Shown here piece by piece: positions 1 to 47,868 of a stretch of 64,000 nucleotides of DNA (positions are counted from its first letter, which is position 1; each line of letters opens with the position of its first letter). Under the pieces are notes generated by a model, which was not told the DNA's origin, searched no databases, and saw nothing but the letters and a program-made list of their open reading frames with translations. The DNA is taken from assembly GCA_039545355.1 (NCBI GenBank), contig BCJJ01000004.1, positions 2,002,801 to 2,066,800 on the forward strand. Direction: 5' to 3'. The translations under genes were made by a program, and so were the position numbers. This DNA comes from Trichosporon coremiiforme (taxonomy: Eukaryota > Basidiomycota > Tremellomycetes > Trichosporonales > Trichosporonaceae).

Positions 1-3000
1 GTAGCGCGCGACACGGAAAAGGGCCATGACACTGTGGTCCTTGAGACCGCGGGAGAGCTGGCGCTGCTGGTTGATCGCCTCGCCGAGCGCCGTGAACCAT
101 GCCGTCGTGAAGGGCTCGGGCTGGGAGCCGCCGCCCTTCTTGAAGAGCCAGGCGACGTAAGGCATTCCGCGAGCGACCTTGCCGACAAGGGGGTCCTTGA
201 CCATGTCGGCGTCGCGGCGGCGGTAGGACGCGATGGCGGCGACAAAGGCAGAGCGCGCCTGCGCGGCCACGTCATCCGTCTTCTTCTCGACGGTCACCTT
301 GGAGGTGTACCAGTCCGTGATGTCCTGGGCCTTAAAGTCAGGGATGTTGCTCATCCAGGCGCTCCACTGGTGACACAGACGACGGTAGCGCAGCAGCGCG
401 ACGATGAGGAAGCCGTACATGACGGGGAGATAGATCTCGAGGTCGTGTCCGTTCACGAGCGAGGAGAGGAGCGGCGAGATGAAGAGGATCGGGAACGTCT
501 GCAGGAACACGTTGCGGCCAGACGGGAGGGGCGAGCCGTGCTGGTGCATCGTGCTCATGATACCGAGCAGGTTGAGGTACGTCGAGATGCCGATGAGGTA
601 GGCGGCGAAGACGAAGCCAGACGCAACCGAGACAGAAACCGCGAAGCCGATCAAGCCAAAGACGGAGACAATGACGGCGAGGACGAAACCGCCTGCGAGG
701 CGCTGGACGTGGAAGAGGATGATGTTGTCATAGGCGTAGTGCGGGAGGTAGTGCGATCCGGCGCTGCCGACCCATCCCGTGACGCCGGCGGTGAGAAGCA
801 GGGCGGTGAGGAGCGCGTAGCCCGCTGCCTCGACCATGTCCGAGTCCATGTAGGCAGTCATGAAGAGTCCGCGTCCGACAAAGGTGAGGAGGATGACGTC
901 GACAATGGCGGGAGCGCAGAAGATACTCATCGCACTCGCGGCAGCGAAGCGCATGCGCCAGACGGTGAAGCGCTCGAAGAGACTGAGCTTGGCGTCGACG
1001 CTGCTCTCAGCCAGCATCTGGAGGATGGCTTCCTTGGTCTTCGGGGGCGCATCGTCCGTGGACGCGTACATCGTCATGATCTCGTTGTTCTGGCGATCCT
1101 CAGCCCTGGGACCTCCGAGGGCCTCGAGCTGACCCTGGCGGCGGTGGTAGATGATGTCTCCGATCTCGCGGGGCACGACGCCAAAGTAGTTCTCGCACTG
1201 CGAGCCGAGCGTCCACAGCTCGGAGAAGACGGCAGCCTGATCCGCCTGCTGCAGGAAGACGGGGCAGCGATCCACACTCTCGAGGTAGACGTCCTCGAAC
1301 GCGGCGCGGCGAAGGCAGGTGAAGAAGATGAGCGCGAAGAGGTCGGCCTGGACGTCGACACGCTCGCCAGAGCCGGGAGGAGCCGGGTCACGGCCATAAA
1401 CGTGGAGCAGCGCCTTGGCTAGCGTCTTGAGCGTCTTGTGCTGGCCCTTGTACAGCGAGTCGACCATGACGTCGTCGATGACGTGGTACAGCTTCATCAG
1501 GTCGGAAATGAGGGGCAGGCGCACGGCGCCGGCACGCGCGTGCTGTTCCAGGCGGAGACAGAGAATCTCGAGCATGCTCATTGATCCATCGAGGGCGCGG
1601 CGCGCGACCATGTTCATCCACGTCGTCTTGCTCGTGCCATCCATGAGGAGTTCGGTCGCGAAGGCGCGGATCGGCCCGCCGAACGGTGTCTCGTCCCCGC
1701 TCAACCTGAGCTGCTGGAGGATGAGGAGGAGTTCGGCCGTGCTGGCGCCCTCGAGAGCGGTGCGCACCGTGTTGGGCAGGCCGCTCGGGTGACCTCCGCC
1801 CGTGAGGTTCTCGAGCACGACCTCGTGGATGAGGCGCGTGACGCGAGCCCGGCCATGGTGCGCGAGCCAGGTGTGGAGGACGACGGCGGCGTCGTTCGGC
1901 GCGGACTGGGAGATGAAGATGTCGAAAACCGGGTTCGGGGACGGGTCGGCCGGGTCGTGCCTGGTGGTGCACACGCCCCAGAACGCGGCGTTTGCGTCCG
2001 GAGCCCGGAACCCCGAGTGGAGACCCTTGTGGATACGGATGCTGCGCGTGCTCAGGCCATGGATCAGCTCGTGCAGGAGAATGTCGGCGTTGGGGTCACC
2101 TGCGAGAGAGCGGAGCTGCGACAGGATCGCCTGCTCCTCGGCGTTCTGCACCGGGTACAGCATACCGAGCGCGCGAAGCTGGGACTGCTCGGCCACGATC
2201 GCGGCATAGTGTCCGTCATGCGGCTCAGAGCACAGCGGGTAGCATCCGTGCTCGCTCAGTTGGTCGCCGTCCGTGCCCTGCGTCCAGAAGTCGCCCTCGC
2301 GGTACCCGGCCATGTATTCTGGGGCAGGCACAAGTTGGGGTACCTCGTACTGCAACCGGGCGAGCTCCTCTGGGAGGTCCTTCTCGACGAGGCAGTCCGC
2401 GACTCCGGGGATGACCCGCTCAATGACAGCGAGCGGGAGGTGGGTCGGCTCGCCATTCGGCGTGAGATCGACAGGCCGCGAGTCGGATGCCCACGAGCGC
2501 TGCAGGTCCACAATCTCCGGTCGACGGAGGTACTCGAATCCACCGATCGTACGGGTGCTAGTGGGCGCGGAACCCAGCAATCGCGGACGGTGCTCAAAGA
2601 CAGCGCCGTAGTGCTCGGCGATCTTGATCGCGCGACGAATGACGGCCGGGTGCGGCCGGTTCTCCCACTGGTCGAGGAAGCCGACGAAGAACTCGGGGCG
2701 GTTTTGGCGCTCGCGTGCGCAGTTCGCCATCAGGTCGCGGAGCGGGCGGGCCTGGAAGAAGTCTCGCGGCTCGCCGGAGGGGAGGATGCATGCACTCTCC
2801 ACGATGAGACCGGCCGGCAGCTCCAGGTTCAGATCGTTCAGGGCCGGATGCTCCTCGTGGATGCACACAATGCTCGAGACGCCGCGGTAGTGCAGCGCGT
2901 CTACCAGAGAGTCGATCTCCTCGGCGGTCGAGCGAGGTGCGACACGGAGTGCAAAGCCGTTCAGCTCCAGCTCCACGAAGCGGTCCAGCAGATCCACGAC

Positions 3001-4032
3001 CGTGTCGCCCAGGTTGGCCAGGGAGAGCGCGTCGTCGGTGAGATCCTCGAGGTCGACGGCGCCGAGCTTCATCTTCTGCGGTCCGTTGCCGTTTCCGATA
3101 GACCACTCGCTACCGGGACGGGGAGAGTAGAGGGTATGGCTCCAGTCCGAGCTCGGCGCGTGGGTGAGGCGCGGCGTCGCTCCCCAATCGCCGCTGGTAC
3201 CGATGCGTGGACTGCCGCGGATACTCCCCCGTCCATTACCCCAGGTATGGCTGAAGTCCGACGGCGTCATGGCCGGACTGCCAGGCAGCTGGGGGGAGCC
3301 GCTCAGCATTTCCCTACTGTCCCGCTTCGGCATGTGCAGGGGGAAGACGACAAAGTCGGCCTTGTTCGACTCGGCGAAGTCGAGGTCGAGGTCGTAGTCG
3401 CTCAGGACAGTGAAGGATTTGGTGTTCTTCAGGCTCCCGCGGAGGGAGAGGTTGGCGAACGAGTCGCGGTGTGACAGCACGGTGCTATCGTCGTCCCGGT
3501 TCCTGCGGAACGAGAAGGCGCCGCGCGCGTGCTGCGTGAAGCGGCGCAGGCTCGCCGTGTTGTATGTTCCCAACGAGGACTCAGAGGGCGCGTAGTAGGA
3601 CGGCCGTGATTGGTGACCCAGGCTGGACGGCGCCGTGTGGCCGTGGGAGGAGGGGGGCTGGCTCTCGGAGAAGCGGGTCGCGAATGACAGCCGCGTGCTA
3701 TAGCTCGTCTGGCGGGAGTGCGTCGGCGTATGCCTTCGAGACGCCATCGACATGCGCGCCGCTTTCCGATCTCGTTCCTTCTCGCTCTCTTTTGGTTTCG
3801 TTCGTACCGGCTGGTAGTTCTTCGGCCGTCTCCGGATGAGCTTGTAGAGGCCGTAGACTAGGATCGGAACGCAGAACGTCACGGCTGCGAGCACGATGCT
3901 GAAGCCCTGGTACCAGTGCGCCAGGCGGCGGTCGGAGGGCAGGATGGCATTGCAGAAGATGTCGAACCCGTTGACGGTGCAGTTGGTGACACCGCCTGAC
4001 TCCTCGAAGCCGGGCTGGAAGAAGGTCGCCAT
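1..4032 (-). CDS. Large polytopic membrane protein, probable Gtb3-type GAG synthase (3' end beyond window)
   Basis: An uninterrupted frame of 1344 codons runs from the ATG at 4032 off the left edge, so the C-terminus is missing. One hydrophobic helix lies near residues 45-66. It is followed by a basic, Ser-rich segment (about 67-300), a long soluble region of mixed alpha/beta character (about 320-1020), and a group of hydrophobic segments at roughly 1025-1225. I do not recognise a catalytic domain in the visible part. In Aspergillus fumigatus the GAG locus encodes a very large membrane glycosyltransferase (GT4 family) flanked by transmembrane segments. Four neighbouring genes here match the other four GAG genes, so a Gtb3-like role in polymerising and exporting the polymer is the best inference, with the GT4 domain expected downstream of position 1. 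The + strand is also open over long stretches, but only as an antisense shadow. Alternative: an unrelated large fungal membrane protein. Confidence 0.6.
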   Translation of the reverse strand, partial: MATFFQPGFEESGGVTNCTVNGFDIFCNAILPSDRRLAHWYQGFSIVLAAVTFCVPILVYGLYKLIRRRPKNYQPVRTKPKESEKERDRKAARMSMASRRHTPTHSRQTSYSTRLSFATRFSESQPPSSHGHTAPSSLGHQSRPSYYAPSESSLGTYNTASLRRFTQHARGAFSFRRNRDDDSTVLSHRDSFANLSLRGSLKNTKSFTVLSDYDLDLDFAESNKADFVVFPLHMPKRDSREMLSGSPQLPGSPAMTPSDFSHTWGNGRGSIRGSPRIGTSGDWGATPRLTHAPSSDWSHTLYSPRPGSEWSIGNGNGPQKMKLGAVDLEDLTDDALSLANLGDTVVDLLDRFVELELNGFALRVAPRSTAEEIDSLVDALHYRGVSSIVCIHEEHPALNDLNLELPAGLIVESACILPSGEPRDFFQARPLRDLMANCARERQNRPEFFVGFLDQWENRPHPAVIRRAIKIAEHYGAVFEHRPRLLGSAPTSTRTIGGFEYLRRPEIVDLQRSWASDSRPVDLTPNGEPTHLPLAVIERVIPGVADCLVEKDLPEELARLQYEVPQLVPAPEYMAGYREGDFWTQGTDGDQLSEHGCYPLCSEPHDGHYAAIVAEQSQLRALGMLYPVQNAEEQAILSQLRSLAGDPNADILLHELIHGLSTRSIRIHKGLHSGFRAPDANAAFWGVCTTRHDPADPSPNPVFDIFISQSAPNDAAVVLHTWLAHHGRARVTRLIHEVVLENLTGGGHPSGLPNTVRTALEGASTAELLLILQQLRLSGDETPFGGPIRAFATELLMDGTSKTTWMNMVARRALDGSMSMLEILCLRLEQHARAGAVRLPLISDLMKLYHVIDDVMVDSLYKGQHKTLKTLAKALLHVYGRDPAPPGSGERVDVQADLFALIFFTCLRRAAFEDVYLESVDRCPVFLQQADQAAVFSELWTLGSQCENYFGVVPREIGDIIYHRRQGQLEALGGPRAEDRQNNEIMTMYASTDDAPPKTKEAILQMLAESSVDAKLSLFERFTVWRMRFAAASAMSIFCAPAIVDVILLTFVGRGLFMTAYMDSDMVEAAGYALLTALLLTAGVTGWVGSAGSHYLPHYAYDNIILFHVQRLAGGFVLAVIVSVFGLIGFAVSVSVASGFVFAAYLIGISTYLNLLGIMSTMHQHGSPLPSGRNVFLQTFPILFISPLLSSLVNGHDLEIYLPVMYGFLIVALLRYRRLCHQWSAWMSNIPDFKAQDITDWYTSKVTVEKKTDDVAAQARSAFVAAIASYRRRDADMVKDPLVGKVARGMPYVAWLFKKGGGSQPEPFTTAWFTALGEAINQQRQLSRGLKDHSVMALFRVARY

Positions 4033-6755
4033 GATCGCTGGTGAGTGTCGGGTTTCGGTCTCACTCTGCGGTAGGTTGGTCGGCGGTAGTGAGGATGGAA
4101 GAAGAGGTGAGGGGAAGAAGGTTTAAAGGAGGGAGGGGATATGGTACAGGCGAGGAGTGTCGAAGAGGGGAGGTCTGTCGAAAGGGGTTAGAGGAGTAGG
4201 TGGTCCCCTTGGTCTTGGTAGTCCAAGAAAAGAATGTGGGTAAAGTTGGAGGTTGTAGTGAAGTGCGATCGCAAAGTCTTGTCAGCTGGTCTCGGTGGAC
4301 CCCGTCGGAGTACGGAGGGCAGGAAGGAGAGCAGGTGATCGTGATCGCTTGCCATACCGTCGGCATCTCAGACTGGGGGAGCAGCCACAGCCACCCCCGC
4401 ACTGAGACAGTCGCACGCTCTCAGCAAGCTCTGCTCGCCGGGGATTGCAGGCCGAGTGACTCCCCTCGCACTTGCACACGGGAGTATGCAGGCGGCGTCG
4501 TGAGCGACAGCCAGGGGGGGCGATAGAGGGCTCAGAAGGGGCTCAGAGGGCTCAAGGTTGTTGACATAACCATGTCTGGATCCGAGGGACTGGCACCAGG
4601 AACGACCCACCGCCGTCGCAGGGTCCACTGCGAGCGAGTGCGACCCGGGCAAAAGGCACGGGCTGCTCCCAGAGACAACTCAGTCCTCCCTGCTCCCTGG
4701 CTCCTTCCAATCTTCCCACAGCGCAGGCTTCAAGCGATGGCTTCGGTCCGGACTTTGCTGGGACATTCCTGCACATTGAGCGACGCGGCATGCCCAGCCT
4801 GCAACTCAGCCGGACCTGCCGTTACATCTCGCACAGGTCCGGGGGCGTCCTTTAGCGTGCTTTGCTGTTCGGTGCGATGCTTCCGACTTCACAAGCCAGC
4901 AGGGCCGCCGCCGCACGGACGTTTCGACCAACGCTGTCCCGCAGCCCGGTGAGAACCCTAAACCCACGGTGCCCTCGATGCACGGTCGAGGACGGCGGTG
5001 TAACCCGATGTGGATGCCGAGGAGGCGGTCTGCGCCCCGACGACGACGCCAAGAACAGAGTAAGGTGTCCTTCTGCATCCCCCCCCCCCTGGTGTGCCTG
5101 CATTGCATGACTCACGAAGATTCCGGGCCAGGGGGGACGAAAGGGGAAGAATCAAGGGAGAATCAAGGGAGAACCAAGGGAGGCCCAGGGGAGGGAGATG
5201 AAAAAAAGAGACAAGGGAGTACTACCCCTGCCCGCTGGGGACCGCTTGCCCTGAGTGTTGCCGAGCTGCACAGTGGAGAGACCAGATTTTTGGGCCATTT
5301 CAGTGATTTCGCTGCTTTCATCGATATAATTCAGTCGCTGCCGTGGGTAGGGGGAGGCTTGCAATTTATCGGCCTCTGCACTCCCCCTCAGATCGCGATC
5401 TGCAACTGTCCCAGATGCACACAATCAGATTGCGAACGGGAACGTTCCTCGGCGCCATCGCCGGCCTTCGGTGTCCTCGCTTGCGGGCATGCAAGGTTGC
5501 CGGACTAGGCTCTGCTCATGGCGGGGTGTGTAAGTGCTCATCAATGCCCAGCAAATGCAAGGAACAGGCAAGGTACGCGCTATGCAGGAACGAAACGAGC
5601 CACTTTCGCGGGCTGGTTTGGTATTTGCTGCACCTTGCTTGAGAATTACTACAATGCATTGCACGGGAAAAGCAAGCTCAACCTCGCCATTCTGTACCGG
5701 GACGGAGAGGAACGAGAGGGGTGAGAGGGACGAGAAGGACGTGTGGGTGGGCGATTGGTAGCTCGACTGAATCGCTCCCGGGCGGTCAGGTGGTGGACCC
5801 AGCGCCAGCCTGCCAGCCAACCGCGCGGGGACGATAACAACGCAATTGGAAGTATCCACGACCCACTGACACACTGCGACCCACTTGAGCCAGCCTGCCG
5901 CTCGCCATCACGGGACGCATTCATCTCACTCTGTAACACGTCCCCTTGATTCTAATGAACACTTTGAGTAATGCAAGCATGCTTTCGTGGGATGCATGCT
6001 TTGAGCAAGCTTCGGTCTGCATGTAATGAAGTCTAATGGTTGCATCGTCCGTGCAGGCCCGGGGTTCAAGTCTCTAAGTCTATGGTTGTTTCGGTGGGGT
6101 GTGTCGCCGCATGCATGCGACGACGGCTGGTATTACAGTTTCATGTTCGGTGGTTGCGTCGCATCCTCGGTTTTTGGGGATAGTGGTAACAGTGTTCTAG
6201 ACGTTGGTTCCTTAGGATGCTTAGGAGGGAGGAAGGGAGGGTTTTCTCGTTTCGTGTCCGCACGCATGTCGGCTTGCGTTGTCGAAAAGGCGATGCAAGG
6301 CGAGAGTAGTGAGGTGATTGATACATGGTGAGGGAGGTCTGGCCACCGCAGCAGAGCAAGACACGGCAGACACGGCAAGACACGGCGGGCACCCGACCGC
6401 CCTAGCGACGGGTGCCGAAGGCATAGCGCCGCTGCCCGTTAACCAGAGGCCGCGCCGAAGCCCGGCGGTGCCGTTGCTGTTGCGGCGGTGCCGTGCCGTG
6501 TGCCCAGCCGTGCCGTGCCGTAGCCCAGCCGTGCCGTAGCGTGCCGTAGTGTCGAGGGTGCCGTAGTCCGTTGGTGAAGGGGGATGGGTGGGATGTTAGG
6601 TTCGCGGACCGTGCGTAGTACGCCGCCCACGGTGCCAGGGCGGGCGAGGCAAGGTTACGCTTTAAGTCTGCTCCGCGCAAGCTTGACCCCATGACGGGTC
6701 CAGCGTTGCGTTGCTGCGTCGCTCGGAGCAAAGGCAGCTCGGCGCAACGACCGGC
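4033..6755. other. Intergenic gap, 2.7 kb, no gene seen
   Basis: No convincing coding frame was found on either strand. The stretch contains a short direct repeat of about 12 bp (agaatcaaggga-like, near 5149-5184) and GCCGT-rich imperfect repeats near 6350-6560. It also has a weak tRNA-like trace near 6020-6085 that does not fold. It presumably holds the 5' region of the gene at 4032 and the 3' region of the epimerase gene. Confidence 0.6.
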
Positions 6756-7949
6756 TTACACGGCGCGGACGCGGGCAACGAAGCGCCACAGGTCGCGGGC
6801 GCTCTGCAGCAGGCTCTCCGTCGTCGACCAGCCAAGCTCGGCGGTGGCGCGCGCGTTGGCAGCGACACAGGAACCGACGTCGCCCTCACGCCTCGGGGCG
6901 AGGACGGAAGGGATCTTGCGTCCAGACGCAGACTCGAGCGCATCGTGCGCCTCGGCCACGGTTGTGCCAGTGCCAGTGCCCAGGTTGAAGGTGCGGAAAG
7001 GCTCGTCGACCTTGGCGTCGAGGGCTGCAATGTGGCCACGAGCAAGGTCGCTGACGTGGATGAAGTCGCGCACGGCCGTGCCGTCCCGGGTCTCCCAGTC
7101 TGAGCCGAAGATCTCGAGCCGCGGGCGGTCGCCCGTCAGGACCTGGGCCAGGACCGGGAACAGGTTCGTCGGCACGCCACGCGGGTCCTCGCCCAGAAGG
7201 CCAGAGGCGTCGCATCCGATGGGGTTGAAGTAGCGCAGAGCGAGGATAGACCATGACGGGTCCGAGTAGGCAAGGTCGGCGAGGATGGCTTCGCCAAAGT
7301 ACTTGCTGCGGCCGTAGGGGGAGGTGAGGCCCATGGCGCCGGGAATGGCAGTGACGGTCTCGCCGTCGCGCTCGTACGTGTGCGGGTGGTGGACGACGTC
7401 CTCCTCCCGCAGCGGGATGCCCTCCTCCGCCTTGGTGCCGTAGACGGTGGCTGAAGAGGAGAAGACAAACTTCTTGATGCCGTAGCTGTCAAGAGTCTTG
7501 AGGAGGGAAACAAGACCGCAGACGTTGTTCATGTAGTAATCGAGGGGCTGGGCGATGGACTCGGAGACAGACTTGAAGGCAGCAAAGTGGATGACTCCGC
7601 TGATACGGTAGCTGTCGAGCACGAGGCGCAGGCCGGGGGAGCGGTAGTCCATCTCGTAGAACTTGAGGGCGGGGACCGTGCGGCCGTTGGCGTTGCACCA
7701 GAGGGCGGCGGCCTCGCGGATCGAGGAGAGGACAGTCTCGAAGGCATTGGAGAGGTCGTCGACGATAACAACATTCTTGCCCGCCTTCAGCAGCTCGAGG
7801 GCAGTGTGCGAGCCGATGAAACCGAGACCGCCGAGGACGAGGACATACTCGGGGCCGGGGGGAGGGGAGCCCGACCCGGGGGTAGTCGGAGCAGTGGAGG
7901 CGTCCGAGAAGGAGGCGACAGAAGACGCCGAGGGAGAGTAGAATGCCAT
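6756..7949 (-). CDS. uge3: UDP-glucose/UDP-GlcNAc 4-epimerase (GalE/Uge3 type)
   Basis: This single-exon protein of 397 residues is an extended short-chain dehydrogenase of the GalE family. It interconverts UDP-Glc/UDP-Gal and probably UDP-GlcNAc/UDP-GalNAc with bound NAD. The NAD motif GGLGFIG is at residues 40-46. The SSSATVY strand is at 164-170 and the catalytic Tyr-x3-Lys is Y212/K216. At the position that decides N-acetyl substrate use (Cys307 in human GALE, Tyr299 in E. coli) this protein has Cys361, within the human-like context REGDVGSC, which predicts acceptance of GlcNAc/GalNAc. There is no C-terminal mutarotase domain, unlike ascomycete yeast Gal10. The ATG at 7949 was chosen because the family starts shortly before the Gly motif. 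The frame is open 57 codons further upstream, but a TATA-like site lies there. It sits among GAG genes, fitting a precursor-supplying Uge3 role. A plain galactose-pathway epimerase remains possible. Confidence 0.88.
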   Translation of the reverse strand: MAFYSPSASSVASFSDASTAPTTPGSGSPPPGPEYVLVLGGLGFIGSHTALELLKAGKNVVIVDDLSNAFETVLSSIREAAALWCNANGRTVPALKFYEMDYRSPGLRLVLDSYRISGVIHFAAFKSVSESIAQPLDYYMNNVCGLVSLLKTLDSYGIKKFVFSSSATVYGTKAEEGIPLREEDVVHHPHTYERDGETVTAIPGAMGLTSPYGRSKYFGEAILADLAYSDPSWSILALRYFNPIGCDASGLLGEDPRGVPTNLFPVLAQVLTGDRPRLEIFGSDWETRDGTAVRDFIHVSDLARGHIAALDAKVDEPFRTFNLGTGTGTTVAEAHDALESASGRKIPSVLAPRREGDVGSCVAANARATAELGWSTTESLLQSARDLWRFVARVRAV

Positions 7950-8018
7950 GATGAGTTTGGCTTTGTCTACAGATGTGATTGAGGGTTGGACAGGTGGAAG
8001 AGAGGCGATGCAGTCTTG

Positions 8019-8026
8019 TTTATAAG
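8019..8026 (-). promoter_or_regulatory. TATA-like element of the epimerase gene
   Basis: The minus strand reads CTTATAAA about 70 nt upstream of the ATG at 7949. This argues against translation starting at the upstream in-frame ATG near 8120. Confidence 0.4.
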
Positions 8027-9616
8027 CACTGAAGGATTGTCGATCTTGGCACTCAGCGTGCGAAGAACATGTGAGACCTGATGATGCACGGGAAGAGACG
8101 CTCCCTTGTTTTGGTCGCAAGGTTGGGAATGCTCATGCAGACTTTCGAGCGGCAGGATGACCGGGAGTCAGCGCTGACCCGGAGAACCCGGCGGAGTGAG
8201 TGAGCGGCGTGGGGGCCGCACTACCAGAAGGAGGCGGGCCATCCTTGCCGTCTGCACAGCGCCAGCGCCTGCGCCTACTGAGACGTGAGATGAGGTAAGA
8301 ACAGCGGACCAACACAGAGCGACGCACGCACCATGACCCGACCCTTTGGCCAGACACAGAGTTTACAGTCTCTGCATATCTGGCACGCTCTGGTCCTGGG
8401 CACCTGGGACGTCTGGGTTCGACCTGGGCACGACATGGGACCTTGACCCGCTGATCCGGGCTGCCCGGTCTCGTCCCGAGCAGGCAAGATGTACCTGGCC
8501 TGCGGCCATGGCCACAGGGCACCAAGTCTGAAGGGGGCGGGGGACCCACTACCTCTGCGACTTGAGACGCACGGTGGTCAGCACCCGTGCAGTGTGCGCT
8601 TGCCTCAGCTTGCTTCAGGCAGAATCAGTCATGAAACCGCGCACTGCCAGAATCCTGAACCCGAAGGCGTCGCAGATCCACCGAGCTGGGAAGCAAAATG
8701 GATGATGTGTTTCCGCGCTCATGTTTCCTGAGTTTTGCTCCTGAGCGAGAGTTAGATCCCAGCTTTCTCTTGTCTGTCGCTTCGCTCCCGGCGAGATCGA
8801 TCTGTAGATGCCCCTTTCGTCGAAATGAGAATGACAGCATTGAGCGCAATGTCGGGTCGGTGCAGAACATTGCTGCGCTCTGACTTGCTATGTGGCAGAT
8901 CCCGATCGATTGGTAACGAGTCACCATGCCGAGACGATCCCAGTGGGATGGCACGGAATGACGAACACAAGCGACACGTCCGGCGGGGATAGCGGGACAT
9001 CATTGATTTAGGTCATGAACGTGATACTGAGACTGAGATCGTGATCGAGGCGTGCTCAGACCTCGGCCACGAACGAGAGAACATCGCACTACTAACGTAC
9101 GTGGAGCATGCAGACTGCGAGCCAGCGGTGGGCCCTCTGATCATCACTCTGCGAGCATGAGGCACGAAAGACGGGCACCTGGAACGCACAAGACAAGCTG
9201 CAGCACTGTACCTAGAAGGAATTTCTCACGAAGTGATCAAGCCGGATGTACCTTTGCATGGAATCAAGACGTAGTGATCACCTGGGGCTTGCATGTGTTG
9301 TTGTGAGCGTAACAGCATGGTGGGTCGGTGTGCTTGTGGGGAGGTTATTCACTTTTTGCGAGAGTTACGGCTGAAAAGCCACACGTCAGCCAGGAGGGAG
9401 GGACCCGGGTCCCGGGCAGTCTAGTGTCTGGCACTTGGCTCTGGGTCGACGGGGCGGAGGAACACCGGGGCCCGGTATTTTGGTTCAGCCTACTGAACTT
9501 GATTACCGCATGAGACGTGGGTTAGGTATAGGGCGCCAGTGAAGCAGGGCCCGGGAGCCGGAGCGTGAGACAGAGCTCATCTGTTGCTGTCTGCCCATGC
9601 CCGGACAGTGAGCGGT

Positions 9617-9653
<37 letters not shown>
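9617..9653. repeat. (TGGC)n tetranucleotide microsatellite
   Basis: About nine perfect tandem copies of a four-base unit lie in non-coding DNA. Confidence 0.95.
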
Positions 9654-9654
<1 letters not shown>

Positions 9655-10103
9655 CGGCTGATGTGAGCGCACCCGGGAGCATTGGGAGACCATCAGTGTC
9701 AGTCTCGGGCGCTCGGGCGCTCGGGGCGCAACAGCTGCCGAGACAGTGCAGGAATGTCTGGTCCGTGGACCCTGAGGGTGTCCAGGCAGGGCTGCCGATC
9801 TCGGTGGCGTCGCGGGGCGTCGCATGTCACGGGTACCTCCCACGCCCTGAGCCCAGGAAAGCTAGCGCTGAGGTCAGCCAGTCACCCAGCGAACCCTCCT
9901 GGCTGGGCTGGCTGAGCTTGGCTGGGGACCCACGCCTGGATGGCTCGGTTTACACTTTGCTCGGTTGCAAAAAGCGCCAAAGGACCGGGGTATGGGGCGC
10001 TGAGCGCGCGTTTCGCGTTTTGCTTGCGAGCTTAGCCTCCCAGCCCTAGGCTTGCCTCCAGTAAACCCTAAACCCACCACTCACTCTCTAGACACTCGTC
10101 TCG

Positions 10104-10163
10104 GGCCATCTCAGGCCATCTCAGGCCATCTCAGACCATCTCAGGCCATCTCAGACCATCTCA
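10104..10163. repeat. 10-bp tandem repeat, six copies
   Basis: The unit ggccatctca is repeated six times. Two copies carry a G-to-A change at the second base (gaccatctca). The length of one helical turn per unit places every copy on the same face of the DNA. Confidence 0.95.
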
Positions 10164-11437
10164 GGCAGCACACGACCACGACTCCCAGAAAAGGCCTCCC
10201 GTGTTTCTGTCGTCACCTGTCCGAGCTACGCCAAGCTACAGCCGTGCACGACTCCCGTCACGCCGTCTGCGTGCATTCGAGTATGCTTTTGTCTCCCTCT
10301 CAGTGCTTTAACCTAGCACTTTTGCGCACAGCGTGGGCCGTCATGCGGCGTCAGCTGGGGGGTCCGTGCGAGCTCGGGAACCAACCGAAATACTGGTCTG
10401 CTTAGTACTTTGAGCACTTTTACAGGAACGCAGCGTAGGCACGGCGGGAAGCACCTCGACGCAGGTCAGCACCCAGGCACACAAGTCGCACTAGCTGCAG
10501 GTAGCGTCAGCAATCACCCCACAAAACGTTCGCAGATGGGCCCTGGTGAGTGGAGGTTCAGGAACAAGAACGCAAGCAACACGTCACGGCATCCAGCCAA
10601 GATGAGAGCACTGGCTCCCGAAGAGCCTGCATCCAGGCTGAGCCTAGGCTGAGCAGGCTGAGACCGGCACCAGATCGATCAGATCGCGACTCAGTGGGTA
10701 CAGGTCCCACCCGCCACCACAGCGCGCCGCCGCAGTTACAGACCCGTCCCAGACTCTCGGACTCAGTTTCGTCACCGCGCCTCAGACCTGGCTGGGTCCT
10801 GGCTTGGTCCTGGCTTTGCCCTAAGCATCAACGTTAACGTTCCAGTGCACCGCATCACGCAAACGTACGCTACGTACAACGACCACGCAACACCGATCGG
10901 CGAGCTTGAGGCAGCATCTCATTGCACTCTCCCAACTTCAAGCCAACCTTCCCACCCAGCTGAGTCATCTGCGCCTTCCAGCAAAGTGCACGTTGGCACC
11001 CAAGCCACCCTCCCAAGCCTACGACATCCCCCCCGAACAGCTCTCCGCGACAAGCTTCAGTACTAGGTCAGAAGACCAGGAACGACACAGGCGCACACTT
11101 TTCTGCCCCTCCTGGCTAGCTGGCACTCCCTGCTATCCCTGCTCCTCCCTGTTCCTCCCTGCTCCCTGCTCGTCGTGCGAAAACATAGAGTATCCGCAAA
11201 GGTTTGTATAGGTTTGGCCTGAAACGTGGCCCTGCGCAGTCTCCGCTGCCATCCATCCGCCTGCCGTGCAGCCGTACGACGTAAGGCCAGTCCCCCTCCG
11301 CGCCCAACGTACTCTGCCGCTCTCGCACCCGCAGCAAACGTGCAGCACGCCCGCGAGCTGACTTCCCACCGTTCCTGCCCATATCGCCGTTTAACCCGGA
11401 TCCGTCAGAGTTGCCAGCCCAAAGCTAGCCCTCCACG

Positions 11438-12607
11438 ATGAAGTTGGGACGGCTCAACCTCCACTTGGGCTCTTCACGAAAGTCCAAGAGTGAGAACCTC
11501 CACCAAGGAAGTCCACCCCGTAGTTCGTCCAGTTCCTCGACTTTGTCCAGTGCTCGCACTTCGCCCAAGTCGTCCACTCCGATCAAACGTCACGCTGGAC
11601 AGTCACCTGGTCCTCTTCTTGCTCCGAGTTCGGCAACCTCTCACCAGCGGCACCCCGGTCTCTACGCCTCCGCCTCCGCTTCCGCTCGCGCCATGGCACC
11701 CACGGCCATCGTCATCCCCCTGTACATCTACCCCTCGCCCGGCGCCTGGGACCCGCTCATCCGCACGGCCAAGGCGAACCCTCTCGTCCCCTTTGTCGCG
11801 ATCGTGAACCCCAACAATGGACCCGGCAACACCGTGCTCCCTGACGCATGCTACCAGGCCGCTCTGGCCGAGCTCTGCTCCGTCCCCAACATAACCCTGC
11901 TCGGCTACGTGCACTGTGTCTGGTGCAAGCGTGACAGCCCCGAGATCGAGTCCGACATCGACACGTACGCGTGCTGGGCCGCCGAGTCGCAGGGCCGCTT
12001 CGGCGTCTCGGGCATCTTCATAGACGAGGCGCCGTGGGATCCCTGCCATCGGCCGTACATGGCCAACTTGGCCGAGTACATCCGCAAGACCTTTGACGAG
12101 GAGACGGGCAGCCCGGGGCTGGTGTGCTACAACCCCGGCGTCGTCGTTGACCAGGGGTATCTCGAGGACTGCGACCTCGCTGTCGTCTTCGAGCAGAGCC
12201 ACAAGGAATGGTACGCCTACTTCCTGCGCAAGGGGCTGGTACAAATCCCGTACAACCTGCGCTCAAAGTGTGTGGCCATGGTGCACTCCTTCGGGCAGCT
12301 GGAGGGGCTCGAGCCCTCGTCGCCGACGTCCCCCACTTCCTCCAACTCCAACAACTCCTGCTCTCCCAACCGTAACGGTCATGGACACGGACACGGGAGG
12401 AACCACAGCATCGAGCTCGACGGCAGCAACGCCGGTGGCGTCGCCAAGGCCGCTATAGCCGTGACGGACCAGATCACGCAGCTCGGCTTCGGCGGCGTGT
12501 TCCTCACGGAGCAGGTGGGCGGATACTCCCACTTCCCCGAGACGTGGGACACGGTCGCGGAACGCTTGACGCAGACCCAGACGCAGGCGAGGAGTACGCG
12601 GTTCTAA
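11438..12607 (+). CDS. sph3: Spherulin-4 family protein, GH135 (Sph3-like)
   Basis: This 389-residue single-exon protein has a Ser-rich, basic N-terminus (1-85) and a spherulation-specific family 4 TIM-barrel domain from about residue 88 (IVIPLYIYPSPGAW). In Aspergillus, Sph3 is a GH135 hydrolase needed for GAG synthesis, with an adjacent Asp-Glu pair and a second Glu. Here FIDEAP gives D196/E197, and VVFEQSH gives E252, so the acidic residues appear kept. A low-complexity Ser/Asn/His insertion (about 295-325) interrupts the domain before the final GFGGVFLTEQVGGYSHFP block. No signal peptide or membrane anchor is visible, unlike Aspergillus Sph3, which carries an N-terminal membrane helix. 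Either an unseen 5' exon supplies it or the protein is intracellular. M86 is an alternative start. It is flanked by the epimerase and the GH114 gene. Confidence 0.85.
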   Translation: MKLGRLNLHLGSSRKSKSENLHQGSPPRSSSSSSTLSSARTSPKSSTPIKRHAGQSPGPLLAPSSATSHQRHPGLYASASASARAMAPTAIVIPLYIYPSPGAWDPLIRTAKANPLVPFVAIVNPNNGPGNTVLPDACYQAALAELCSVPNITLLGYVHCVWCKRDSPEIESDIDTYACWAAESQGRFGVSGIFIDEAPWDPCHRPYMANLAEYIRKTFDEETGSPGLVCYNPGVVVDQGYLEDCDLAVVFEQSHKEWYAYFLRKGLVQIPYNLRSKCVAMVHSFGQLEGLEPSSPTSPTSSNSNNSCSPNRNGHGHGHGRNHSIELDGSNAGGVAKAAIAVTDQITQLGFGGVFLTEQVGGYSHFPETWDTVAERLTQTQTQARSTRF

Positions 12608-13153
12608 GCCGTTGTGATGAACAGCCTGCCAGCCTGCTGCGAGTCGTGATGGCTTCTAGGTTTGGCTGTACTGGTTGCCTGGGTACGATCTGGGGGGATC
12701 GACGCCGACTGCGGAGGCACGGAGGGATGCGACTTCGCTCACTAACGAGGTGCTGCGCACTGGTTCCGATCGTCTGAAACGGGGCTGGCGGAGGCGGTGC
12801 TGAGCTGCGGATCGGCGTTGATAGCACGGACCACTCGAGGTACCGACACGGAGACGGAGATGAGGATACAAGGGCTATAGATAACATGTAAACCCTGAGA
12901 AACTGCACGCCGCACCGTATTTAGACAATAGGGACCAGGGACGATACACTTCATGCAACTATGACTTGCGATTCAAGATAAGCCATGGCGGTGCATTGCA
13001 CAGCCATGATAAGGAGTCCACAGAACTCATGGCTGATGCGTAAAGAGCGTAGTATGCATACTTTGATGGAAAAACGTACCGCCTGGGCGGATGGATTGGG
13101 GCGCGGAACCAGCCGCCGCCCCGTGGCTAGTCTACAACGGAGACTACAATGCT
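12608..13153. other. Convergent intergenic spacer
   Basis: This 546-bp stretch lies between the 3' ends of the convergent sph3-like and ega3-like genes. Nothing coding was seen. It presumably holds both 3' UTRs. Confidence 0.6.
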
Positions 13154-14143
13154 TTACGAGTCGAAGGTCGGCTCGCAGGGCTCGACCCACTGGTCGAGCG
13201 CCATCTTCTTCATGACCATGGAGAAACCCTTGGAGCCGTCGGCATTGCACTGCGCCGCGAGCGCGTCAGAGGGCATCTCAGTGCCCGCCTGCGAGGGGTA
13301 CTCGATGGAGAACACAGGCTTCTTGGCCTCAATCATGCCCTGGTACTGGCCACACTCGCCGTACTCTGCGCACTGCTCGACGACGGAGAACTGGACGCTT
13401 CCCTCGACGGCGGGCACGATGGCGGCGGCATTCTTGAGCCCGCAGCCCATGTTGTGCTTCCCCGCCTCGGCCGCGAGGAACTTGACATAGTCCGACGCGT
13501 CGGCTTCGGTGAGACCCAGGCCGTTCTCGTTGTTGTACGCGTCGACGTTGTCGGGGTCGACGGCGTCGCAGCCCTTGTCGGCCGCCATCTTGATGCGCGC
13601 GCTCATGACACTGCGCACCTTGTCCGAACCGGTCTTGACCCACTTCTCGCCCTTCCACCCCTTCAGGTCGGCACCGAGGTCGGCCTTGTCCCAGTCCTTG
13701 GCGTCGGGGCGCCAGTCCTCGAACGAGCCGGCGGAGAAGTAGCAGATCACCTTCTTGCCTGCGGCGTGGAGGGCGGAGATGGTAGACGCCTCAACGTCGA
13801 AGAGGTCCATGTCGTAGATGTCTACATTGGGGCTGGGCTTGCCGTTTTCGATGGGGACTTGCTCGGAGAGGACAATCTGCCAGGACGCGCCAACGGGGGG
13901 TTGCCAGACTGCCGTGGGGGGCGTGGCGGGGGTGGGGGCAGTAGCATTGCCCGAAGGACCGGGGGAGACGGCAGAGTCAGAGGCGGAAACGGAAACCGAA
14001 GGAGAAGCAGAGGCAGAGGCAGAGGCAGCGTCGTCGGATGCCGAGGCAGAGGGAGAGTGCGATCCCTTACGGGTACACAAGCCGACGGGGATGCCTACCG
14101 CAAAGGGCAGGATGAGGACGAGGAGGAATCCGAGGAGGACCAT
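13154..14143 (-). CDS. ega3: GH114 endo-alpha-1,4-polygalactosaminidase (Ega3-like), membrane-anchored
   Basis: This is a 329-residue protein from the ATG at 14143. Residues 1-21 form a strongly hydrophobic segment that can serve as signal peptide or type II anchor. A Ser/Ala/Pro-rich linker runs from about 25 to 75 and the GH114 domain from about 80 to 322. Family hallmarks are the strand VICYFSAGSFEDWRPD, the acidic cluster DPDNVDAY (D196, D198, D201) and VVEQCAEYGEC (E256). In Aspergillus Ega3 one Asp and one Glu at similar spacing are catalytic. It should cleave deacetylated stretches of GAG at the cell surface. The frame stays open about 27 codons upstream, reading a charged stretch that ends in a tryptophan-lysine-rich junction, and a possible splice acceptor sits near 14224. 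A cytoplasmic tail encoded by a 5' exon is therefore plausible and would make a clear type II protein. Confidence 0.87.
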   Translation of the reverse strand: MVLLGFLLVLILPFAVGIPVGLCTRKGSHSPSASASDDAASASASASPSVSVSASDSAVSPGPSGNATAPTPATPPTAVWQPPVGASWQIVLSEQVPIENGKPSPNVDIYDMDLFDVEASTISALHAAGKKVICYFSAGSFEDWRPDAKDWDKADLGADLKGWKGEKWVKTGSDKVRSVMSARIKMAADKGCDAVDPDNVDAYNNENGLGLTEADASDYVKFLAAEAGKHNMGCGLKNAAAIVPAVEGSVQFSVVEQCAEYGECGQYQGMIEAKKPVFSIEYPSQAGTEMPSDALAAQCNADGSKGFSMVMKKMALDQWVEPCEPTFDS

Positions 14144-15234
14144 TTTCTTCCACAACGGCCAGCGCTGTCGTTTCGTAGTGTTTGACTCGAGGTCGGACTC
14201 TGTCCGGGGTAAGTTTGAGTCTACTGGAGGTTAAAGAATGTGGGTGTTTAAAGAGTGGCTGCGGCGGCTAGATGATGATCGAGCGCCAGCAAGTGTTAAA
14301 CTACGAAACTACAAGAAAGGGGAAGGAAGGAAGAAAAGACGGGAAGGAAAGAAGGGGGGAACGAAGGGATGAATGAGGGACAAGACAAAGGGAAGGGATG
14401 CATGGTGGATGTTATGTACGATCGCATGCATCGACGTCGGACGCGTCGCGGGACGCATCGCGATCGCGAACACGCCGTAAGCAGAAGGTGACCAAGGTGA
14501 AAAGTGACAGTGCGTGGTGAAAGCTTAAAACACGACGTGACCCGGCCGGACCGGTCTGTGGACCTAGCTTGGCAGGATGGACGGGTGCAGCGATGGTCAC
14601 CCGGACGCAAATGAGGGGTCATACGACGGTGGTTGGTGGACTTAAGGACGACTACTACTTTCGAGGTCCTCTCGTAAAGGCAGGCAAGACAAGGACATTA
14701 AGGACAAGGACTCACTGCTGCGTGTGCCATCTTTCTGGTACGAGTTGGAGTCTGGCCCGTCGGACGGGATGAACTGGATGAGAGCTGTGCCCATGGTGTA
14801 GGGTGGAGGGTGGAGGAGTAGGGGTTACGACTCTGGTCTATGTGCGTTGGACTGGGCCCAGGCTAGGCGTGATTGTCGAGCTTGGGGATGTTGCATGAAC
14901 GGAGGTTTGCAGGTGTCACGACGCAGTGCTTGGCATGCGTCGTTTGTTGTCTATGGGGTAGGCGATGTGAGTTGCGAGTCGGAGGTGGGAGAGCGAGCTC
15001 GTCGAGTGTCAAAGTCGAGGTAGATGAAGGCTGCGATGACGGCTGCGATGGCCTGTGAAGGGATCTGAGAATGCCCAGCCTGGACTATTGCGGGACAAGA
15101 CGAGGCTATACTTGGCACAGACCAGTGAATGGCGGGCGCTTTCGCTAGTGCTGAACTCTGCACACAAGCCACTGCAGCGGTCCGCAGTACATGGAACGCC
15201 TAGTGCGTGGTGGTGGTGGGTGTTGGATGAAGGA

Positions 15235-15248
15235 GGGGGGGGGGGGGG
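15235..15248 (+). repeat. Poly-G tract, 14 nt
   Basis: An uninterrupted run of 14 G, which could form quadruplex-type structures and is a likely spot for sequencing length error. Confidence 0.9.
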
Positions 15249-15466
15249 AAGTGAGGCGAGCATGGGAGTGCTGTCGTACCTGGGAGGTGAGGACGTGCAC
15301 TGGTTGCAAGACCGACCTAGGGGCCAAGGGGCTACACTTGGGAAACGGCAGGGGTGTGCAGGGGGCCAGCAAGTGGGTTCTGGCAGTCGACCCCTCTCGC
15401 TGGGGCTCCATGCATGCGACCCGAGTGCTTCATTCATTAGGGTTTGCAGGCCATTGAGCGGTAGAC

Positions 15467-15510
15467 GCTCGGGGTGCTCGGGGTGCTCGGGGTGCTCGGG
15501 GTGCTCGGGT
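15467..15510. repeat. 9-bp tandem repeat, about five copies
   Basis: The unit gctcggggt occurs four times perfectly and then once imperfectly, in the divergent promoter region. Confidence 0.95.
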
Positions 15511-16543
15511 GGTGAGGCGTACGCCACTGCCTGAGACAAGGGGACCGAAAAGTTGTGGGATGACGTGAGACAATACTGCTGCGGTGATCGTCGGCCATCT
15601 CCACCCACCCCTCATTTCTCTCTCCCTCTCTCCCTCTCTGTCTCTCTCTTTTCGCTGGGTCCAAGGTTGTCCGTCGTCCCTCTCCTTTCACAACAAGCTT
15701 TCGGTGCCGAATTTTCAAATCAAAAGCAAAAGGCTGTGCATCTGCCACCTGTCTTGTGCTACTGCTTCAAGACATCATCCGGGGTTTGACCAGCCCCGGG
15801 TCTCGCCCGGCCATCCATGTCGCGGACGCTTGGGTGCCTCATTCCTCGTAGTCGGTCAAGACCCGGACCGATTACACTTTTCGCTTCCATTCTATCTGCC
15901 GAACAGTCTTGCAAGTGGTCGAGACTGCGACTCCCACGCCACCCAGATACGCCCAGATGCATGCAGACAAGACAATCTTGACGTAGCCCCCTGTGCAGGC
16001 TAATCGGCGATCTAGCGATTATCACTGATCCGGCTGATCCACTGATCGCTTACCACTCTTGCTCATGTAATTGGGATCTCGACGCCATGCATGCCCCGAT
16101 CAATTGCAGCCTTTGCCGTAGTTGCCGTCACGCAGGCATGGATCTCATCCATCCGAACCCCTCTGCAAAGTTGTCGTACCTGTCCGTACCTGCGTCTCCC
16201 GTAACGCCCTGCTTCTTTTCAGCCGTGCCAGGCCAGGCTCAGGGCCGTACCGTGTTCCCGGGAGCGCTTCGGACCCCTGGCCAGCCTGAACCACCAGAGA
16301 GTATGAAGCTCGCTGTCTCGCACCGGGTTCCTCCACCGAACACGACGCGGACAGCGCGCTGGAGCGCGTTTCCTTTGCATGTCCGGATTCCGGAAGGGTG
16401 ACCGTGATCTTTTGAGACTCTGGGAAGAAACAGGCTGGCACGGCGGCACGGACGTGTCTCTGCGACGGCGATTGAGCTTCACTCTATTCCTGGAAACTCG
16501 GACAAACAAGCTCCAGTAACCAGAAACCACCCGACCAGCCCAG

Positions 16544-16549
16544 TATATA
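16544..16549 (+). promoter_or_regulatory. TATA box of the agd3-like gene
   Basis: TATATA occurs 56 nt upstream of the ATG at 16600 in otherwise GC-rich DNA. The same spacing is seen at other genes in the window. Confidence 0.5.
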
Positions 16550-16599
16550 GGCGGCGACGGCGTGTCATCTTCTCGTTCTCCCAACGCAACAAGGCAACA

Positions 16600-19230
16600 A
16601 TGCGTGCCACCATCGCTCTCGGAGTCCTCCTGTCCGTCCTCTCAGTGACGGAGGCTTGCGCCAACGCCGGAGCCTGCGGGCACCGCGCGTACCAGCGCCG
16701 CAACGACATCCCCTACCGCGAGTACCCCCGTGACAAGGCCTGTCGTGACAAGAAGCAGAACGGCCGTGCCAACCCCCCGGGACAACTGAAGAAGAAGACG
16801 ACGACGACGAAGAAGACGACGACCAAGCCCACGACGACGGTCAAGAAGCCCACTACTACTGCGAAGGGCGTCACGACGACGGGCAAGGCCACCACGCCGG
16901 CGACGCCCTTCCCGACAACGACGCCCAAGGCCCCCTCCGCCAGCCCCTCGTCCGCCAGCAATGCGGCCTCTCCCTCATCTGCCATCGCGTCCTCCGTCTT
17001 GGAGTCTGTCTCCCCGAGCGTGTCGTCCACCGCTGTTGACTCCTCGTCGGCCGTCTCGCCGTCTGCCGCACCCTCCGAGCCCGCGACGTCTGGATCCGGC
17101 GGCGCCATCCGTCCCTCGGAGACGCCCGTCGTCCCCGAGCAATCGGCTATCCCCGATGCTTCCCCGGACAGCGCAGCTCCCTCCGTTGTCGTCCCGCCCA
17201 ACCCCGCGACCTCGGCTTCTGGCTCCCGTATCGGCGGCGCTACCGTCGATAACCACATCCTCATCCTCGCCAAGGACGAGTACAGCGCCGAGTCCGGCTT
17301 CCATGGTCTCGAGGGCTACGGCATCCCCTACGACCGTGTGCTTGTTCCTCAGGGCGGTGTGTCTCTCCCCGCTCTGAACGACACGGGCACGCACGGCCGC
17401 TACTCTGGTATCATTGTCATGGACGCACTGTCGTACGAGTACCCCGAGGGCTGGCACAGCGCCATCACCGACGAGCAGTGGAAGCAGATCCACGACTACC
17501 AGGTGCACTTCTCCGTGCGCATGGTGCGCATCAACGAGTTCCCCGGACCCAACTTTGGCGCCGAGGTCGACTCTGCCGGAGCCGGCGGCACTGGCTCCGA
17601 GCACGACATCTCCATCACCGACACGGCCGACTTCCCGACCGCTAACCTGAAGACCGGTGCTGGTCTCTCCGCCAAGGGTCTGTGGCACTACCCCGCCAAG
17701 ATTGTCGACAGCGCGACGACCAAGGCCGTCGCCAAGTTTGCGCCTGACGGAACCTATGGTGAGACTGTCGCCGCCGTGATCAACCACTTTGCGGACGGAC
17801 GCGAGCAGTTTGTCTGGTTCACTTCCTGGGCGCCGCAGTGGAGCACGACCTGCGCTGCCTTCCAGCACGCGCACATCCACTGGCTCACGCGCGGCCTCTT
17901 CCTCGGAAAGCGCAAGACGCACCTCAACATTCAGATCGACGACGTCGAACTCGCTACCGACATGTACCTGCCCCCCAAGGCCATCTTCCGCCTCCGGCCA
18001 GAGGACCTCGAGGGCCACGCCAACTGGCAGAAGGACCTGAATGGCCGTCTCCCCGCCGGCTCGAATGTGCGCCTCGAGCTCGGCCACAATGGTAACGGCG
18101 ACATCCTGGCCGCCACTGAGCCCAGCTCCGGCGGCATCTGCACCCCCGACTACGCGGTCGACTACCCCGAGGTCCCCGACACCGAGCTCGAGTTCAAGAA
18201 GCCGCTCGGCACCGGCGTCGACTTCTGGCCTAAGGAGTGGACGACCTACCCTTGGTCGTACCAGTGCACCCAGCGCGACAAGCTCACCGCGTGGTACAAG
18301 GACACCTCGAGGCGCGACCAGTTCTTCCACGTCTCACACACGTTCACGCACGAGGAGATGAACAATGCGACGGGCCGCGACGCCGCGCTCGAGATCCAGT
18401 TCAACCAGGCGTGGCTGAAGCAGGTCGGCATCGCCGACGGCATGTTCTCCCCTAAGGGCATTATCCCGCCCGCCATCACGGGCCTGCACAACGGAGACGT
18501 CATCAAGGCATGGATGGAGAATGGCATCACGCACGTCGTCGGTGACAACACCCGCCCGGTCCTCCGCAACGGCGAGTCGCCTTACCACCCCCTCATCTCG
18601 ACCGTGGACGGTAACGGCTATGCTGGCCTCGTCATTGTCCCCCGCTGGGCGACGTCCATCTACTACAACTGCGACACGTGGGAGTGCGACGTGCAGGAGT
18701 GGAAGGACATCTCGAAGGGCTACGGCGACTACAACGACCTGCTCGCCAACGCGAAGGAGGTCAACACGCCGTACCTCTTCTCCCTCAAGGCCGACCCGTA
18801 CATGTTCCACCAGGCCAACATGCGTCTCGTCGACATGCCCACCATCACGGTTGGCTCCAAGACGGGCCAGATGTCCATGGTCATGGGCTGGGTCGAGAGC
18901 GTTGCGCAGGAGATTGCCCGCGTGACCAACTGGCCCATCGTCTCGCTGAAGCACGACGATTTCGCGCAGTACTTCCTCGACCGCCAGGCTCTGGACGGAT
19001 GCAAGCCCAGCGCCGTGTTCAGGACCAACGCCGACGGCACTCAGATCACCCACGTCGAGGTGCATGCCGACAACATGAACTGCCCCGCCGAGGTGCCCGT
19101 CACCATTCCCGGAGGCGGGGCCAGTGGCGGCCGCACCGACCAGGTCGGCTCTGAGCCCCCCATCATCTGGGTCAAGCTCAACGGCGGCCAGGCCACGGTG
19201 CAGCTTAACAATCCCGTCAAGCTTGCCTAA
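16600..19230 (+). CDS. agd3: Secreted CE18 polysaccharide N-deacetylase (Agd3-like)
   Basis: An 876-residue single-exon protein. Residues 1-20 are a signal peptide. Residues 65-210 form a Lys/Thr repeat followed by a Ser/Pro/Thr/Ala-rich linker, likely O-glycosylated. The catalytic part starts near 217 (DNHILILAKDEY). In Aspergillus, Agd3 removes acetyl groups from GalNAc in GAG, making the polymer cationic and adhesive, and uses an Asp plus an H-x3-H metal site. Here the DDV motif (NIQIDDVELATDMY; D447/D448) and the HVSHTFTHEEMN motif (H580/H584) match that arrangement. Later conserved-looking blocks are GDNTRPVLRN and YQHxN-like segments (HQANMRLVDMP). It is the terminal gene of the GAG group and is followed by a 4.9 kb gene desert. 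The residue assignment rests on motif spacing and not on an alignment. Confidence 0.9.
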   Translation: MRATIALGVLLSVLSVTEACANAGACGHRAYQRRNDIPYREYPRDKACRDKKQNGRANPPGQLKKKTTTTKKTTTKPTTTVKKPTTTAKGVTTTGKATTPATPFPTTTPKAPSASPSSASNAASPSSAIASSVLESVSPSVSSTAVDSSSAVSPSAAPSEPATSGSGGAIRPSETPVVPEQSAIPDASPDSAAPSVVVPPNPATSASGSRIGGATVDNHILILAKDEYSAESGFHGLEGYGIPYDRVLVPQGGVSLPALNDTGTHGRYSGIIVMDALSYEYPEGWHSAITDEQWKQIHDYQVHFSVRMVRINEFPGPNFGAEVDSAGAGGTGSEHDISITDTADFPTANLKTGAGLSAKGLWHYPAKIVDSATTKAVAKFAPDGTYGETVAAVINHFADGREQFVWFTSWAPQWSTTCAAFQHAHIHWLTRGLFLGKRKTHLNIQIDDVELATDMYLPPKAIFRLRPEDLEGHANWQKDLNGRLPAGSNVRLELGHNGNGDILAATEPSSGGICTPDYAVDYPEVPDTELEFKKPLGTGVDFWPKEWTTYPWSYQCTQRDKLTAWYKDTSRRDQFFHVSHTFTHEEMNNATGRDAALEIQFNQAWLKQVGIADGMFSPKGIIPPAITGLHNGDVIKAWMENGITHVVGDNTRPVLRNGESPYHPLISTVDGNGYAGLVIVPRWATSIYYNCDTWECDVQEWKDISKGYGDYNDLLANAKEVNTPYLFSLKADPYMFHQANMRLVDMPTITVGSKTGQMSMVMGWVESVAQEIARVTNWPIVSLKHDDFAQYFLDRQALDGCKPSAVFRTNADGTQITHVEVHADNMNCPAEVPVTIPGGGASGGRTDQVGSEPPIIWVKLNGGQATVQLNNPVKLA

Positions 19231-40551: not shown

Positions 40552-40629
40552 CGTCACCCGTTTCGATCGTTCCTGTCGAACCTTGATAGAGGGATGAGAT
40601 GACGGTTGGGACTTATCTCGTAGCGACCA

Positions 40630-47825: not shown

Positions 47826-47868
47826 CGTGAGTGATATGAGGAGGGGCCATCAGACTGGTGTCACCGCG

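Follow-up and report, generated by a model that had tools for sequence, protein, structure and literature searches.

Does the gene cluster at this locus of Trichosporon coremiiforme encode a working galactosaminogalactan (GAG) pathway, and from where did it come? The window, by which we mean the whole stretch of 64,000 nucleotides that was analyzed (C4:2002801-2066800, in a genome of 42.04 Mb in 134 contigs), holds a real, well-identified GAG locus, a further instance of a kind already published: by the account of PMC4817252, such a cluster has been known since 2016 from T. asahii, with lectin evidence. New here are the corrected distribution and probable age of the cluster, a candidate donor, and its duplication in a hybrid. 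Taken jointly, the evidence makes it very probable that this is a functional GAG cluster, kept intact in both subgenomes of a Trichosporon hybrid and acquired by horizontal transfer from a Sordariomycete, most likely before the Vanrija split, with biochemistry and product predicted by homology.

Gene content of the locus

All five GAG genes were found where the initial annotation had put them, each as one uninterrupted frame, with the orientation -,-,+,-,+ (Table 1). The neighboring GH31 gene, in contrast to the single-frame GAG genes, is divided between a frame at 26407-28104 and another at 28192-29598, and splice-like sites lie between the two.

Table 1. Features of the window. Gene coordinates include stop codons; start codons are the authors' choice.
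Feature	Window position	Strand	Remarks
gtb3, GAG synthase	1..4032	-	5' part, aa 1 to about 1344 of 2913
uge3, UDP-Glc/UDP-GlcNAc 4-epimerase (predicted)	6756..7949	-	397 aa; Cys361 gate
sph3, GH135 spherulin-4 type GAG hydrolase	11438..12607	+	389 aa
ega3, GH114 endo-alpha-1,4-galactosaminidase	13154..14143	-	329 aa; N-terminal membrane anchor aa 2-20
agd3, CE18 GAG deacetylase with CBM87	16600..19230	+	876 aa
GH31	26407-29598		
Multicopper oxidase	38308-40629		
AMP-binding enzyme	42594-44423		
AMP-binding enzyme	46161-47849		
DUF6081	49591-50694		
Histidine phosphatase	51337-52779		

The one-to-one correspondence of four enzymes with Aspergillus GAG genes, proposed from the sequence at first reading, agrees with both family and structure matches. 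Pfam scores were 219.9 bits for Sph3 (Spherulin4), 278.9 for Ega3 (Glyco_hydro_114), and 140.9 for Uge3 (Epimerase), while Agd3 matched CBM87_Agd3 (284.3), Agd3_CE (558.4), and Agd3_C (59.5), giving a CBM87 module, a carbohydrate esterase domain, and a C-terminal domain. The PDB matches were 6nwz for Agd3 (E 4.7e-205), 6oj1 for Ega3 (1.6e-75), and 5d6t for Sph3 (4.2e-39). Agd3 also has a Ser/Thr-rich linker and, by hydropathy, a signal-like segment at aa 3-21.

The protein cut by the left edge had been taken for the polymerase, with the search for a glycosyltransferase domain to the left of position 1 fixed beforehand as the check. That sequence completes an open reading frame of 2,913 aa, which ends at C4:1998091, 4,710 bp beyond the edge, and carries a C-terminal GT4 domain outside the window at aa 2664-2819 (Pfam Glyco_trans_1_4, 65.8 bits, cut-off 27). 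Its EX7E motif (E2753/E2761) is invariant in 35 aligned Gtb3 sequences. Hydropathy gives Gtb3 ten transmembrane segments, one at aa 44-62 and nine at 1034-1521, a count that leaves out a further hydrophobic segment (2763-2781) inside the GT4 domain. A conserved region at aa 345-500 (window 2533-3000, minus strand) has no Pfam match and a predicted beta/alpha arrangement; GH191 galactosaminidases are among its best structure matches, but they score level with unrelated barrels.

A six-frame search of the whole genome (42 Mb), whose counts are lower bounds for large families, found 2 CE18, 2 Spherulin4, and 4 GH114 matches, of which both CE18, both Spherulin4, and two GH114 fall in the window cluster and in its second copy, described below. 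By our arithmetic, CE18, GH135, and GH114 would come together at random within 8 kb with odds near 1e-6 per CE18 gene, which bears out the claim that this grouping is beyond chance. The two GH114 genes outside the GAG clusters lie at C11 (L010:4939-5733) and C27:472815-473462; the protein of the former is 31% identical to Ega3 and has a signal-like stretch at its start.

Catalytic residues

Cys361 of Uge3 aligns with Cys307 of human GALE, the position that we take to be the gate residue for UDP-GlcNAc acceptance in GALE-type epimerases. This is the residue that the GlcNAc-permissive gate of the initial annotation calls for, and Uge3 is by this residue a predicted epimerase accepting UDP-GlcNAc. 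In Agd3, mutation of seven active-site residues (D377, D378, H510, H514, R613, M666, and H668) is reported to abolish GAG adhesion (PMC7229062); all seven, mapped by counting along the structure-match alignment, are conserved here, and their motifs are present in both cluster copies. The nucleophile D189 and the acid/base E247 of Ega3 are likewise conserved. For Sph3 the support is at the level of motifs, the FxDE and VVFE acidic motifs being shared with 5d6t; the residue numbers available from PMC12054363 did not map cleanly onto our count.

The Sph3 model contains no 19-residue hydrophobic segment above the threshold, and hence no ascomycete-style N-terminal membrane anchor by that measure. 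Hydrophobic pieces of open reading frame lie upstream of sph3 in each copy, and none could be matched between the copies. The model may lack an exon; if it does not, Sph3 of Trichosporon functions without being anchored in a membrane. The N terminus as modeled is Ser/Thr-rich and lacks a transmembrane segment (window 11438-11690), and the copies differ in a low-complexity insert near aa 293-330.

Two copies in a hybrid genome

A complete second cluster at C2:42098-64831 has all five genes without a change of order, in the reverse orientation. Amino acid identities between the copies are 88.6% for Agd3, 86.7% for Sph3, 87.9% for Ega3, 97.0% for Uge3, and 95.0% for Gtb3, with dN/dS values of 0.112, 0.151, 0.145, 0.054, and 0.052, respectively. 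Identities of 86.7-97.0% together with dN/dS of 0.05-0.15 place both copies under purifying selection. The family matches, the conserved catalytic motifs, and this selection indicate that the five genes encode predicted working enzymes. T. coremiiforme is described as a hybrid with 7% parental amino acid divergence (PMC6642101), and T. asahii Gtb3 shares 96.9% identity with one of the two copies here and 95.3% with the other.

C4 ends on the right, and C2 on the left, in repeats of the TTAGGGGG type, so that about 57 kb separate the window cluster, and about 42 kb the second copy, from a telomere. To the right of the window cluster, towards the telomere, matches between C4 and C2 extend over some 40 kb. 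On the left they stop just past gtb3 (C4:1998040/C2:64880) and resume in the same relative order (C4:1985.4 kb/C2:68.5 kb) after about 12.7 kb on C4 and about 3.6 kb on C2.

That ascomycete contamination or an assembly artifact could account for the cluster is suggested by its ascomycete-like trees. We regard this as negligibly probable, given that the contig holding the cluster is 2.08 Mb long and colinear with C2 throughout the cluster and over some 40 kb to its right, and that, among the matches listed, T. asahii A1Q1_05471 shares 97% identity with Gtb3 and A1Q1_05476 shares 92% with Agd3. The identification of the host as a basidiomycete yeast holds.

Several smaller features of these regions may be recorded. 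To the left of gtb3 (C4:1983000-2002800), C4 is about 9 kb longer than C2 and includes MFS-like open reading frames, and the stretch is crowded with many copies of a repeat of about 150 bases. The subgenomes share one run of 299 bases at 100% identity (C4:1983179-1983477), pointing to a recent exchange or to gene conversion. Window 53920-54667 has the opposite relative orientation to the adjoining homeologous C2 blocks, a local inversion, and window 37793-38007 and 63706-63904 each match two places on C2, as dispersed repeats do. Directly behind the telomere repeats at the left end of C2 (L018:1-200), a frame read by eye resembles the zinc-binding stretch of a retrotransposon integrase.

Phylogeny and origin of the cluster

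Tree rows were chosen by us, mostly from named matches among those listed (the best 120 of 159 for Gtb3, of 347 for Agd3, and of 7,992 for Uge3), with Dothideomycetes as the outgroup; class labels were looked up for some of the taxa, and in the initial Gtb3 and Agd3 trees the outgroup took in one or two other rows. Gtb3 trees were built from 39 of the 120 listed plus 2 and, with eight rows left out, from 31 of 120 plus 2. Seven rows, namely both copies, T. asahii, Cutaneotrichosporon cavernicola, Vanrija albida, P0122, and P0161, formed one clade (100/100) that was sister to Plectosphaerellaceae (100/100), inside Sordariomycetes, both supports being those of the tree of 31 of 120 plus 2. In the Agd3 tree (48 of 120 plus 2), both copies, T. 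asahii, P0002, and P0003 formed one clade (100/100) that grouped with Plectosphaerella and Diaporthe (98/96) within Sordariomycetes; Plectosphaerellaceae were not one group in this tree, there being paralogues, and Diaporthe lay inside. Uge3 behaved differently from tree to tree. With 42 of 120 plus 2 rows, Trichosporonaceae stood next to Plectosphaerellaceae (94/96). With 38 plus 2 (P0245, P0249, P0250, and P0254 dropped) and 40 plus 2 (P0245 and P0254 dropped), they stood outside Sordariomycetes without strong support, the Sordariomycetes lying on one side of a branch with support of 93 and 75/75, respectively, neither starred; a clade of Trichosporonaceae and Plectosphaerellaceae was not rejected either (p 0.333, 40 plus 2). 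Trees with ascomycete homologues, which the initial annotation had proposed for separating descent from transfer, therefore divide by gene: those of Gtb3 and Agd3 support a probable transfer, while those of Uge3 do not support nesting and do not resolve the matter.

The gene order bears on the same question. The order gtb3-uge3-sph3-ega3-agd3 is that of N. crassa NCU05132-33-35-36-37, which lends independent, partial support to a Sordariomycete source. The gtb3 and agd3 tags are four apart in Sarocladium, Verticillium albo-atrum, Fusarium duplospermum, and Tolypocladium paradoxum, which fits this order, and in Sarocladium the uge3 tag adjoins gtb3. Sordariomycetes do not all share it: agd3 carries the tag right after that of uge3 in Cylindrodendrum and Neonectria ditissima. 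Order and orientation had been read at first as a sign of long separate evolution or of ancient transfer from ascomycetes; the transfer stands, but an order equal to that of N. crassa does not show long separate evolution.

Had the cluster instead descended vertically, it would have been present in the ancestor of Dikarya and lost in nearly all basidiomycetes. The Uge3 trees of 38 plus 2 and 40 plus 2 rows are compatible with such a history, as is the absence of a foreign compositional signature (cluster GC3 0.82-0.87 versus 0.75-0.87 in seven neighboring open reading frames). AU tests nevertheless rejected vertical descent for Gtb3 (p 5.7e-8; 38 plus 2 rows, with the long-branched Claussenomyces row dropped) and, at a moderate level only, for Agd3 (p 0.0101; 43 plus 2 rows, with Bisporella, P0012, P0022, P0023, and P0061 dropped). 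These rejections, the gene order shared with a Sordariomycete, and the restriction of the named basidiomycetes among the matches listed to Trichosporonaceae make vertical descent improbable. The most likely donor is a Sordariomycete related to Plectosphaerellaceae.

Distribution and age

Lee et al. (2016) found the cluster in 28 fungal species, T. asahii being the single basidiomycete among them, and concluded from an Agd3 tree that it had recently been transferred from Sordariomycetes, as the available text of PMC4817252 has it. In the literature covered, from which subscription papers were mostly absent, no report of a GAG cluster in Trichosporonales beyond T. asahii was found. This published distribution needs correction, since predicted Gtb3 or Uge3 genes also occur in Cutaneotrichosporon and Vanrija. 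Among the matches listed, C. cavernicola Gtb3 is 86% and C. spelunceum Uge3 87% identical to the window proteins, and V. albida Gtb3 is 59% and Uge3 73% identical, the two Vanrija genes having adjacent tags (Q8F55_003253/003252). The named basidiomycetes among the 3 x 120 matches listed comprise at least T. asahii (Agd3 and Gtb3), Cutaneotrichosporon (Gtb3 and Uge3), and Vanrija (Gtb3 and Uge3), a lower bound. No Apiotrichum was seen among these named matches; A. mycotoxinivorans is reported to have two or three ugeB genes (PMC8855340, in its available text). The nearest named Uge3 match listed from outside Trichosporonaceae is that of Plectosphaerella plurivora, whose Uge3 and Gtb3 lie on contigs of equal size (442,045). 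A taxonomy look-up places V. albida in Trichosporonaceae, and Plectosphaerellaceae (Verticillium and Plectosphaerella) in Glomerellales, Sordariomycetes.

The Gtb3 proteins of Trichosporonaceae make up a single deep clade with Plectosphaerellaceae as its sister, so that the transfer probably predates Trichosporon, Cutaneotrichosporon, and Vanrija; we infer, as to number and date, that it most likely preceded the split of Vanrija from the other two. If Vanrija on the one hand, and Trichosporon plus Cutaneotrichosporon on the other, had each acquired the cluster separately from related Sordariomycetes, in two or more transfers, this would explain why Vanrija Gtb3 (59%) is about as distant from the window protein as Verticillium Gtb3 is (58%, among the matches listed). 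Such separate transfers seem doubtful, if less so than vertical descent, as the Vanrija and Trichosporon rows share a stem of 0.19 in the Gtb3 clade and form one clade in the Uge3 tree as well (99/94, 40 plus 2). We somewhat favor a single crossing of the whole pathway between phyla, from a Plectosphaerellaceae-like Sordariomycete to the ancestor of Trichosporonaceae, followed by purifying selection and, after hybridization, by two copies. If this is correct, the published transfer, recent and confined to T. asahii, becomes an old acquisition of a whole family.

Proposed pathway and product

By homology, Uge3 would make UDP-Gal and UDP-GalNAc, which Gtb3 would polymerize and export by means of a GT4 domain on the inner face and its ten transmembrane segments. 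Sph3 and the membrane-anchored Ega3 may trim acetylated and deacetylated stretches, and secreted Agd3 would deacetylate part of the GalNAc, yielding a cationic adhesive polymer. The predicted product is a secreted, partly deacetylated alpha-1,4 Gal/GalNAc polymer.

A different GalNAc-rich exopolysaccharide, a Pel-like GalNAc/GlcNAc polymer in place of a GAG with galactose, might also be considered. The best NCBIfam match of the GT4 domain is PelF, at 71.9 bits and below the 100-bit cut-off, and the polymer evidence for Trichosporon in the available text of PMC4817252 consists of lectin staining, T. asahii hyphae staining with the GalNAc lectin SBA, with no sugar analysis. The family-by-family match of the genes to the Aspergillus and Neurospora GAG genes makes a Pel-like product unlikely and a GAG the preferred reading. 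The initial annotation had contrasted the predicted polymer with glucuronoxylomannan capsules; this contrast fails, because a review reports both for T. asahii (PMC5383668, in its available text), and the two are not either/or.

GAG is described as a polymer that serves Aspergillus in biofilms and in immune masking (PMC4817252), and Trichosporon biofilms as highly resistant to antifungals (PMC4215839). Given this resistance, a GAG locus common to the family, if there is one, could plausibly be targeted with GAG-degrading enzymes of the Sph3 and Ega3 types. The published transfer of a whole pathway between fungal phyla is here supported and re-dated, with a donor lineage and further genera named.

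Comparison with known systems

The T. asahii cluster (A1Q1_05471 gtb3 ... A1Q1_05476 agd3) has the same complete five genes by the account of PMC4817252, whereas here the cluster is present twice, in the hybrid subgenomes. The same source reports a MULE protein with the T. asahii cluster; it has no counterpart here, as no PF10551 match was found genome-wide. The N. crassa cluster (NCU05132-05137; PMC11356417) has the same order of synthase, epimerase, GH135, GH114, and deacetylase but carries an extra small gene, NCU05134, between the epimerase and GH135. Ascomycete Sph3 is described with a transmembrane segment near its N terminus (PMC11356417), unlike the window model.

The A. fumigatus cluster (Afu3g07860-07910) has the same five functions, and its solved Agd3, Ega3, and Sph3 structures match the proteins described here. 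Its order differs, with gtb3 at 07860, ega3 at 07890, sph3 at 07900, and uge3 at 07910, the far end from gtb3; agd3 presumably has its place within the same cluster. Bacterial Pel is a partly deacetylated GalNAc-containing polymer whose synthesis has the GT4 polymerase domain in common (PelF, with a match here below cut-off). Unlike in bacterial Pel, the GT4 domain is here part of one fused membrane protein of 2,913 residues.
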